Below are positions 13,357 to 45,522 of a stretch of DNA of 64,000 nt, piece after piece (position 1 is the stretch's first letter; each line of letters starts with the position of its first letter). The notes under the pieces are model-generated. The model was not told the origin of the DNA, did not search any database, and worked only from the letters and a program-made list of their open reading frames with translations. Made by a program: the position numbers and the translations under genes. Source of the stretch: Lysobacterales bacterium 66-474 (GTDB taxonomy: Bacteria > Pseudomonadota > Gammaproteobacteria > Xanthomonadales > Rhodanobacteraceae); NCBI GenBank assembly GCA_001899805.1, contig MKWP01000014.1:1-64000 (forward strand), read 5' to 3'.

Positions 13357-13710
13357 TGGTGGAGGCGGCGGGAATCGAACCCGCGTCCGAAGGCGCTCCG
13401 CGCCCGGCGCTACATGCTTAGTCCGGCGTTCAATCTCGTCCCGAAGCAGCACGCCGGACAAAGCGCACCGCGGAACCAGCCAGTTTTGTTTTGGCGGATG
13501 ATCGACCGGCGGCAACCATCAGCGATCCCGTGATGATGACCCTACATCCACGAGCACGGGCACAAGTGGGTTCGGGGCTAGGCCTTAAGCGGCCAGAGCG
13601 TAGACGTCGTCGTTGGCGTCTGATTGTTTGCCATCGGATTAACGAGGAAGATGACGCCCTCGGCATGCTCCAGGCTACTTCACAGCCCCCGTCGAAGCCA
13701 GGTCGCCCCC
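13357..13710 (-). ncRNA. ssrA: Transfer-messenger RNA (tmRNA)
   Basis: The RNA is 354 nt. Its 5' end GGGGGCGACC pairs with CGCCTCC before the encoded ACCA tail (the 3' end is at 13357), forming a 7-bp acceptor stem with one G-U pair. The 3' part holds the T-arm sequence GGTTCGATTCCC. tmRNA is charged with Ala and, with SmpB, releases ribosomes stalled on broken mRNAs and tags the nascent peptide for proteolysis. A TATTGT hexamer (13718-13723, minus) sits at the -10 position; the -35 is unclear. smpB lies 1.3 kb away on the same strand. Confidence 0.95.
13585..13617 (-). other. tmRNA tag reading frame
   Basis: The resume frame inside ssrA reads A-N-D-D-V-Y-A-L-A-A then TAA. The A-L-A-A end is the usual ClpXP/ClpAP degron, and A-N-D-D is the usual SspB-binding start in gammaproteobacteria. 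The resume codon is inferred by comparison with the E. coli tag. Confidence 0.85.
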
Positions 13711-13948
13711 GGGGAAGACAATAGTGCGGGCGGTCCGTCCGGAAATCAATCGCGGCGCGGCAGCTGATAGCATGGTCATTCATCGGTTGTTCGGAGCGAA
13801 TGTTCGAGAAGCGTCGCGAGCGAAGGCGGATTGCGTGACGCCGGAGCGCAGCAAGCGGAGCGTACACGCCAGTACGTGAGCATTGCGAGCACCGCCGGCG
13901 CGCAAGCTGCCAAGCGCAGCAGCTTGTCGAACATCATGAATCCTGCGA

Positions 13949-44510: not shown

Positions 44511-45170
44511 TCAGCGCCTGCGTGCCAGCGTCAGTCCGTCGCCGATCGGCAGCATCGCCACGTCGATGCGTTGGTCGCGGTGCAGCTTGTCGTTCAAGGC
44601 CTGCAACGCGCGGGTGTCGTCGTCTTGCGCGGGACGCGCCACGTCGCCTCCCCACAGCGTGTTGTCGAAGGCGATCAGTCCGCCGGGACGGACCAGTTGC
44701 AGGCAGCGTTCGTAGTAACCGTCGTAGCCGGTCTTGTCGGCGTCGATGAAGGCGAAATCGTACTTTCCGGCTTCGCCGGCGGCGATGAGCGCACCCAGCG
44801 TTTCTGCGGCGGGTGCGATCACCAGTTCGATCTTGTCCGCGACGCCGGCGCGTTGCCAGTAGGGCTTGCCGATCGCCGTGTATTCGTCGCTGATGTCGCA
44901 GGCGAGGACCTTGCCGTCGGCGGGCAGGGCCAGCGCGACGGTCAGCGCGCTGTAGCCGGTGAAGGTGCCGACCTCGATGGTGCAGCGCGCACCGATCAGC
45001 TTCACCAGCAAGGTCATGAATTGGCCTTGCTCGGGCGAGATCTGCATGCCCGCGCGGGCGTGCGTCCGCGTGGCTTCCCGCAGGGCGGTCTGTTCGGGAT
45101 GCTCGCGCAGGGAGTGCGCCAACAGGTAGTCGTACAGGGCATCGTCGAGGTTGATGGTGCGGTTGGACAT
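44511..45170 (-). CDS. Class I SAM-dependent O-methyltransferase
   Basis: This 219-residue protein matches the caffeoyl-CoA/catechol O-methyltransferase family. It has I-E-V-G-T-F-T-G-Y-S-A-L (motif I, near residue 65), D-F-A-F-I-D-A-D-K-T-G-Y near 138 (metal and substrate Asp), and G-G-L-I-A-F-D-N-T-L-W-G-G near 163. It is probably divalent-metal dependent; the acceptor is unknown. It is divergent from the asnB leader and convergent with recJ. Confidence 0.88.
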   Translation of the reverse strand: MSNRTINLDDALYDYLLAHSLREHPEQTALREATRTHARAGMQISPEQGQFMTLLVKLIGARCTIEVGTFTGYSALTVALALPADGKVLACDISDEYTAIGKPYWQRAGVADKIELVIAPAAETLGALIAAGEAGKYDFAFIDADKTGYDGYYERCLQLVRPGGLIAFDNTLWGGDVARPAQDDDTRALQALNDKLHRDQRIDVAMLPIGDGLTLARRR

Positions 45171-45231: not shown

Positions 45232-45247
45232 GGCACTTGCAAGTGCC
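45232..45247. promoter_or_regulatory. Perfect 16-bp palindrome upstream of the asnB leader
   Basis: GGCACTTGCAAGTGCC, a perfect inverted repeat ending 25 bp before the leader ORF and 62 bp from the divergent O-methyltransferase start. It is a candidate operator serving either gene. Confidence 0.45.
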
Positions 45248-45272
45248 ACCGGAATCTGGAAAAGTCGCATCC

Positions 45273-45392
45273 ATGTCCACGACCACCGCCATGCTTTCGC
45301 CCGCCAGCGCGCCAGTCGCGCGGGGCTTCGTGGCGGCCGCCGACAATAATCGCGCGAACCCTGACGCCAACCGTCGGCGGGCCCGCGCGTAG
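45273..45392 (+). CDS. Asparagine-rich leader peptide of asnB
   Basis: This 39-codon ORF has a GGAAAAG Shine-Dalgarno-like sequence 8 nt before its ATG. Near its end it reads D-N-N-R-A-N-P-D-A-N, four Asn and two Asp codons in ten, then Arg/Ala codons and TAG. It precedes asnB, whose product makes asparagine, and is followed by a strong terminator. It should act in cis as a sensor of charged tRNA-Asn, not as a functional protein. An internal Met (45291) is an alternative start. No homologue is known to me. Confidence 0.7.
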   Translation: MSTTTAMLSPASAPVARGFVAAADNNRANPDANRRRARA

Positions 45393-45450
45393 CTGAAAGA
45401 AGTACCAGCAGATGCGTGACGAGGCCCGCCCAGTGCGGGCCTCGTCGTTT
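45337..45450 (+). promoter_or_regulatory. Transcription attenuator of asnB
   Basis: Three exclusive pairings are visible. 1:2: CCGCCGAC (45337-45344) with GTCGGCGG (45373-45380), 8 bp, enclosing the Asn codons. 2:3: GGCGGGCC (45376-45383) with GGCCCGCC (45423-45430), 8 bp of G-C pairs. 3:4: the terminator below. A ribosome stalled on Asn codons masks region 1 and frees region 2 to pair with 3 (read-through). A ribosome reaching TAG masks region 2, so the terminator forms. The layout is that of the trp, his and leu attenuators. Confidence 0.7.
45418..45450 (+). terminator. Terminator hairpin before asnB
   Basis: A perfect 12-bp stem GACGAGGCCCGC / GCGGGCCTCGTC with a 5-nt loop, followed by GTTT. 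It lies 25 nt after the leader stop and 73 nt before asnB, so it must be bypassed for asnB expression. Confidence 0.85.
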
Positions 45451-45522
45451 GTGCGCGGACGGAGCCGCGCCGGTTCAATCCGGCCATCCATGGCCGGTCA
45501 TCCACGAAGAGGAGCGTAGGCA

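Follow-up and report, generated by a model that had tools for sequence, protein, structure and literature searches.

Ribosome-mediated attenuators are known for the trp, his, leu, ilv, thr and phe operons in Proteobacteria. In these attenuators, as in the leader described here upstream of asnB, the leader reading frame is rich in codons for the end product, the antiterminator overlaps the terminator, and the stop codon adjoins segment 2. The asnB leader is unlike the classic attenuators in its apparent specificity for asparagine, in its target, asnB, and in the predicted absence of a 5' untranslated region. Attenuation of this kind in amino-acid operons is treated in parts of PMC1183508, PMC2659441 and PMC8632094.

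A closer parallel for the 5' end is the trpL attenuator of Sinorhizobium meliloti (rnTrpL/peTrpL). According to PMC7298713, the 5' end of its RNA coincides with the leader ATG, and the authors also report a function in trans. For the asnB leader, an RNA 5' end at the leader ATG is predicted from the position of a promoter-like element. The trpL leader differs in that it has Trp codons, encodes a 14-aa peptide and belongs to an alphaproteobacterium. On the strength of that report, a leaderless attenuator design has a precedent.

Two further systems were compared. T-boxes, like the asnB leader, sense amino-acid-specific tRNA charging upstream of the genes they control; unlike it, they bind tRNA directly and without translation, as set out in part of PMC2494555, a table of which lists them in 2 of 125 proteobacterial genomes. 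The reading frame uORFC-8-2, upstream of cysS in Rhodobacterales, is presented in part of PMC8632094 as a recent peptide attenuator candidate for another amino acid; it differs from the asnB leader in its Cys codons, in its target, an aminoacyl-tRNA synthetase gene, and in its occurrence in Alphaproteobacteria.

No description of an Asn peptide attenuator was found in the literature searched, with most subscription literature outside its scope. A word search turned up no mention of asparagine in the main text of PMC2965389, PMC1262725, PMC8632094, PMC2659441, PMC1183508 and PMC10272879. Within that literature, the claim of a preliminary description of this locus that no Asn-dependent peptide attenuator has been described in proteobacteria held. 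The class of mechanism, ribosome-mediated attenuation, is known; its specificity for asparagine is apparently undescribed.

Leader reading frame and proposed mechanism

The locus lies in the window, the whole stretch of 64,000 nucleotides that was analysed, and its features are collected in Table 1.

Table 1. Features of the asnB leader locus, in window positions.
Feature	Position	Strand	Evidence
Divergent neighbour reading frame, weakly methyltransferase-like	44511..45170	-	21 bits, below cut-off
-35-like TTGCAA of the predicted asnB promoter	45237..45242	+	TTGC spacing conserved in relatives
-10-like AAAAGT, 17 nt after TTGCAA, ending 7 nt before the leader ATG	45260..45265	+	
asnB leader peptide reading frame, 39 codons + TAG, MSTTTAMLSPASAPVARGFVAAADNNRANPDANRRRARA	45273..45392	+	Reading frame listing, translation
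Asn codon cluster: AAT 45345, AAT 45348, AAC 45357, AAC 45369	45345..45371	+	Translation, relatives
Segment 1:2 hairpin as first drawn (pause or anti-antiterminator), 8 bp	45337-45344 with 45373-45380	+	Pairing search
Segment 2, antiterminator 5' arm; core 45376-45383, GGCGGGCC	45376..45391	+	Pairing, alignments
Segment 3, antiterminator 3' arm, overlapping the terminator 5' arm; core 45423-45430, GGCCCGCC	45412..45430	+	Pairing, alignments
Candidate intrinsic terminator 3:4, perfect 12 bp: 45418-45429 with 45435-45446; tail GTTTGT	45418..45452	+	
asnB, glutamine-hydrolysing asparagine synthase B, 560 aa	45523..47205	+	NCBIfam NF006949 equivalog, 838 bits (cut-off 499)

The preliminary description had placed a 39-codon reading frame with four Asn and two Asp codons in ten upstream of asnB; the frame was confirmed by translation and the gene by its NCBIfam score. 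The two Asp codons are at 45342 and 45363, and the four Asn codons, which are the only ones among the 39, fall within nine codons. Asn accounted for 1.86% of codons in 28 long reading frames of the window chosen by script. The probability of at least four Asn in a given ten codons was 2.3e-5 and, with 30 such stretches to choose from, about 7e-4.

An asnS gene was found in the host genome, so free asparagine can charge tRNA-Asn, and tRNA-dependent formation as the sole source of Asn-tRNA was rejected. Two side observations were made. The same genome contains a 1200-aa open frame (G000 C16:230047-231882) with three stretches 34-45% identical to AsnB, which is perhaps a second amidotransferase-like synthetase. 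The window also carries a tmRNA gene on the minus strand (13357-13774), for which the standard Rfam model scored 194.9 bits and the permuted model 51.

Very probably, asnB is controlled here by ribosome-mediated transcription attenuation, with charged tRNA-Asn as the signal sensed. RNA polymerase would start at or next to the leader start codon, as the promoter position suggests, and the leader peptide would be translated from an mRNA with little or no 5' untranslated region. With ample Asn-tRNA, the ribosome would reach the stop codon at 45390 and cover segment 2, segments 3 and 4 would then form the terminator, and asnB would stay untranscribed. With Asn-tRNA in short supply, the ribosome would stall on the Asn cluster and leave segment 2 free to pair with segment 3, so that no terminator would form and asnB would be expressed. 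With an assumed ribosome footprint of 16 nt, a stall on any of the first three Asn codons would leave segment 2 free. What the sequences themselves show is that the Asn codons and the pairings are conserved, that the pairings partly covary, how they lie relative to one another, and that the leader is linked to one asnB lineage.

The window copy was read beside the leaders of four congeners (VNNNCANNNANPWRARA, LNNRANNNATYRRARA, VNNNRANNNAIRWRARA and VNNNRANNNANRWRARA; window, ADNNRANPDANRRRARA). Its cluster has four Asn codons, against five to seven in the congeners, and its terminator stem is followed by GTTTGT, against six or seven T in a row. Three consensus Asn codons of relatives are replaced by Asp, Pro and Asp in the window. 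A role for the Asp codons, which the preliminary description had counted with the Asn codons, was rejected, most relatives having Asn at these positions. The replaced codons and the shorter U-tract would fit a copy in decay, with a weak response or with constitutive termination or read-through, which would be a sub-case of the preferred explanation. The window nevertheless keeps four Asn codons, an antiterminator of -31.8 kcal/mol, the 12-bp terminator and the promoter spacing. Such a loss of response was judged rather unlikely; the window copy looks eroded and is probably still functional but weakened.

RNA pairings and the promoter-like element

The three pairings that the preliminary description had drawn were all found in the window (8, 8 and 12 bp). 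In relatives, covariation is seen in the terminator and the antiterminator pairing is preserved; the 1:2 stem, with 62% of cells paired, is not conserved in register. Simple consensus scans of the window called neither a promoter nor a terminator at the leader locus. The fold of 45273-45470 was mildly better than those of shuffled sequences (z -1.96; 6 of 200 shuffles as good). Because z is only -1.96, structural energy by itself is unconvincing, and it is conservation that establishes the pairings.

Terminator covariation was 0.232 in 48 distinct family rows, against 0.114 when shuffled (0 of 500 shuffles as high). For Xanthomonas-type rows, 99.5% of the terminator cells were paired, and in 11 cells both partners had changed. 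The terminator stem was already part of the models to which the family and Xanthomonas-type alignments had been fitted. In the unfitted alignment A1, of 17 family members, the corresponding values were 0.244 and 0.124.

These stems bear on whether the Asn run might instead pause the ribosome for Rho-dependent termination or for translational control of asnB, with no intrinsic terminator. The weak U-tract of the window would suit such a scheme, as would the 13 of 42 first-set terminators that have at most three T among the eight bases following the script-chosen stem. Against it, the GC-rich terminator stems covary and many of them have long T runs; in the window, moreover, a purine-rich ribosome-binding site belonging to asnB itself can be read in the sequence outside the terminator stem. 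Control of this type was considered very unlikely.

The antiterminator core of the window (8 bp) lies within a longer duplex. The antiterminator was paired in 97.1% of cells in family rows and 89.6% in Xanthomonas-type rows, and pairing dropped to 27-58% of cells when it was slid by one column. Its covariation within the family was slight (45 of 500 shuffles reached the score) because there is too little variation within clades. In 12 of 43 rows, among them L063 from another phylum, at least 20 of 200 codon shuffles paired equally well with the arm.

Arms were also swapped between clades. Rhodanobacteraceae leaders gave -23.2 kcal/mol with their own arms and -15.5 with Xanthomonas-type arms; Xanthomonas-type leaders gave -22.3 kcal/mol with their own and -16.8 with Rhodanobacteraceae arms. 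No clade preference was found in the six Lysobacter-type rows (own arms -15.4 kcal/mol, Rhodanobacteraceae arms -17.2) or the three Thermomonas-type rows (own arms -20.2 kcal/mol, Lysobacter-type arms -21.8). By this test, the antiterminator was clade-specific in two of four groups.

Local hairpins recurred near the 1:2 site, not clearly above codon shuffles in 83 distinct rows (mean z -0.67), and a significant 1:2 hairpin was therefore unsupported overall. Xanthomonas-type rows have a different hairpin of 9 bp, paired in 87.8% of cells, with a loop of two codons that are mostly Asn-Asn. In 41 of 42 leaders, at most 12 nt separated the end of segment 2 from that of the stop codon; the median number of Asn codons ahead of segment 2 was six. 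As drawn from these sequences, the arrangement of Asn codons, segment 2 and stop codon is what attenuation needs.

Transcription usually starts 6-8 nt after the -10 hexamer. Upstream of the leaders, a shared layout was found of TTGC, 17-18 nt, a hexamer ending in T, and 6-8 nt to the leader start codon. The start codon is ATG, or GTG in L046, L141 and L174. The promoter-like element was present in 41 of the 42 Xanthomonadales-type leaders of the first set, the exception being L047, and is lacking in L063. The score by which it was called was devised after the first-set sequences had been viewed and takes the best of the in-frame starts; it was reached by 0.9% of 4725 control ATGs. With the score unchanged, 59 leaders of a second set scored at least 5 with TTGC, and the element was found in 68 of 68 further loci, made up of these 59 and 9 found with a looser reading frame filter. 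The second set partly repeats first-set sequences (e.g. L152, L006) and is not fully independent; the two sets together gave the 83 distinct rows, L063 included.

With a gap of 6-8 nt between the promoter-like element and the start codon of the leader, a leaderless mRNA is probable. In the window, transcription is inferred to start at or within a few nucleotides of 45273. The preliminary description had named an asnB transcript starting downstream of 45450 as evidence against attenuation; the start predicted from the promoter position lies upstream of 45450, at the leader start codon. If this is true, leader translation would begin on the nucleotides that are transcribed first. It would then be of interest whether attenuation works, or works better, without a ribosome-binding site.

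Conservation of the leader among asnB loci

A scan for asnB was confirmed with tblastn, and the best 80 of at least 591 loci were kept. Among these, an Asn-rich leader reading frame was found in 41 of the 44 loci whose asnB was at least 71% identical to that of the window, ending 78 to 280 nt upstream of asnB. First-set leaders were picked by hand from upstream reading frames with at least two Asn. Examples of leader endings are NNNNRANNNANRWRARA (Rhodanobacter, L005), NNANRNNLRANNRARPMRVCD (Xanthomonas, L030) and NNNNRNNASLPRAGD (Lysobacter, L037). No leader was visible at the three exceptions, L020, L026 and L041. Their contigs are titled Rhodococcus, Holophagales and Deltaproteobacteria, with asnB 75-79% identical to that of the window; they may be mislabelled contigs or cases of transfer.

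Asn made up 17.8% of leader codons (268 of 1508, 42 leaders) against 1.5% in the asnB genes (354 of 23593). AAT supplied 46% of Asn codons in leaders, 16% in asnB genes and 31% in the 28 long window reading frames; the excess in leaders perhaps limits GC structure or slows reading.

The 36 loci of the best 80 with at most 67% identity gave a different result. When 29 of them were screened for an Asn-rich reading frame plus a terminator, only L063 was positive, and L067 (Coralloluteibacterium, of the same order) lacked the combination. Overall, one of the 31 screened loci of the best 80 outside the 41 leader-bearing ones was positive, again L063; eight loci of the best 80 went unscreened because the asnB start pattern was unmatched. 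The screen gave no match on block-shuffled sequences. A general asnB feature of Gammaproteobacteria was rejected, the combination occurring in 1 of 17 screened loci outside Xanthomonadales, with six further such loci unscreened for the same reason. That single match (L210, 196 nt upstream) resembles the final part of an adjacent gene.

A covariance model, R1, was made from alignment A1 (17 family members). The family to which the window belongs, Rhodanobacteraceae, was surveyed in 147 genomes, once with R1 and once with the asnB protein. Among the places listed, R1 matched directly upstream, on the same strand, in 96 of 112 asnB genes. All 96 were at least 79% identical to the window AsnB, one of them over a partial match, and the 16 without an R1 match all belong to another lineage (63-66% identity); no Asn leader was seen in the seven of these 16 upstream regions that were read. 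The 97 full-length R1 places used were the top of the listing, to E 6.7e-8, with those from E 1.1e-6 left out, and one weak place among them (36 bits, G683) was not beside asnB. In the window's genus, asnB of this lineage was present in 5 of 11 genomes, with the element in all five. Because R1 was trained on relatives of the surveyed genomes, the survey speaks for linkage and is not an independent discovery. Two distant family members (L231 and L232) were seen to have about three Asn codons (NRAENN) and a strong T-rich terminator before asnB.

A second model, R2, built on asnB leaders, was run across the order. Strong matches were listed in one sister family (f2) only, and among the other families of the order the listing held nothing better than E 9e-9; the element is therefore demonstrated for two families and not for the whole order. 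The order-wide R2 count of 189 of 299 genomes is not a prevalence, as it includes weak matches and ilv leaders. Conservation of the leader in relatives, on which the preliminary description had made its reading depend, was thus borne out: the reading frame with its Asn run is kept in Rhodanobacteraceae and in Xanthomonadaceae-type genomes.

Since it is kept in frame among relatives, the reading frame could encode a functional small protein, with the hairpin as an unrelated terminator. By eye, the N-terminal halves are variable and hardly alike, and conservation lies in the Asn-rich C-terminal half, namely the Asn run and the C-terminal codons of segment 2. The segment 2 peptides of Rhodanobacteraceae and Xanthomonas-type leaders differ, yet each pairs with its own arm. 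The upstream neighbour in the window is divergent, so the terminator is not that of this neighbour, which would have no use for it. A small protein was judged very improbable. A tRNA-binding T-box or other riboswitch in place of a translated leader, which would likewise sense tRNA-Asn or asparagine, is hardly credible, given that the region has no Rfam family at gathering score (at a lax threshold the best were Thr_leader at 17.8 bits, cut-off 55, and Trp_leader at 17.4, cut-off 41) and that the Asn codons stand in a conserved reading frame with both AAC and AAT in use.

Counterparts in Rhodothermia and ahead of ilvC

Beyond attenuation at this one gene, a wider reading was entertained tentatively and put a little on the doubtful side of even. 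Asn attenuation of asnB would be recurrent, having arisen at least twice, in Xanthomonadales and in Rhodothermia. In Xanthomonadales it would operate on leaderless mRNAs, with polymerase starting on the start codon; the same design would serve the ilv operon; and termination in the leader would yield an abundant small RNA with a possible action in trans. The evidence for Asn attenuation draws on 96 asnB genes of Rhodanobacteraceae, on many others of the sister family and, in another phylum, on an arrangement resembling theirs. The result is a specific, readily testable model of asnB regulation in Xanthomonadales, a group of soil bacteria and plant pathogens.

The locus in the other phylum, L063, is titled as a Rubrivirga MAG (Rhodothermota, Rhodothermia). 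A close asnB was found in five of nine genomes of its family, and all five have a short reading frame such as MIRNLTNANRNPVSRRRRESRRALV or MIHLAPNANRNPLSGRRRDCVWVRV, together with a terminator whose stem measures 13 or 15 bp and which has a run of T. In the class Rhodothermia, asnB was found at the cut-off in 17 of 146 genomes. All 17 were screened, and an Asn-rich reading frame plus terminator lay before asnB in six (L176, L178-L182). The start codons of five Rhodothermia leaders align by eye as TTG, TTG, TTG, GTG and ATG. An antiterminator was suggested by eye at one position; it is not established, because codon shuffles reached its energy in 16 to 226 of 300 cases.

Of the 13 secondary R2 places that were retrieved, 12 are ilv leader peptides that share the layout and lie ahead of ilvC; the remaining one, L168, is an asnB locus. 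These ilv leaders (L156-L167) come from Xanthomonas-type genomes and encode the peptide LVLVLITSPTGAGRTGV and similar ones. The downstream gene was identified as ilvC by NCBIfam for L157 and by a common motif in 12 of 12. The ilv leader resembles the asnB leader in being found by R2 and in its layout of terminator and antiterminator; it differs in its Leu, Val and Ile codons (LVLVLIT...), in the gene it precedes and in having a consensus -35. By eye, TTGACA stands about 30 nt ahead of the leader ATG in 11 of the 12. Judging from these arrangements, leaderless attenuators may be a habit of the order.
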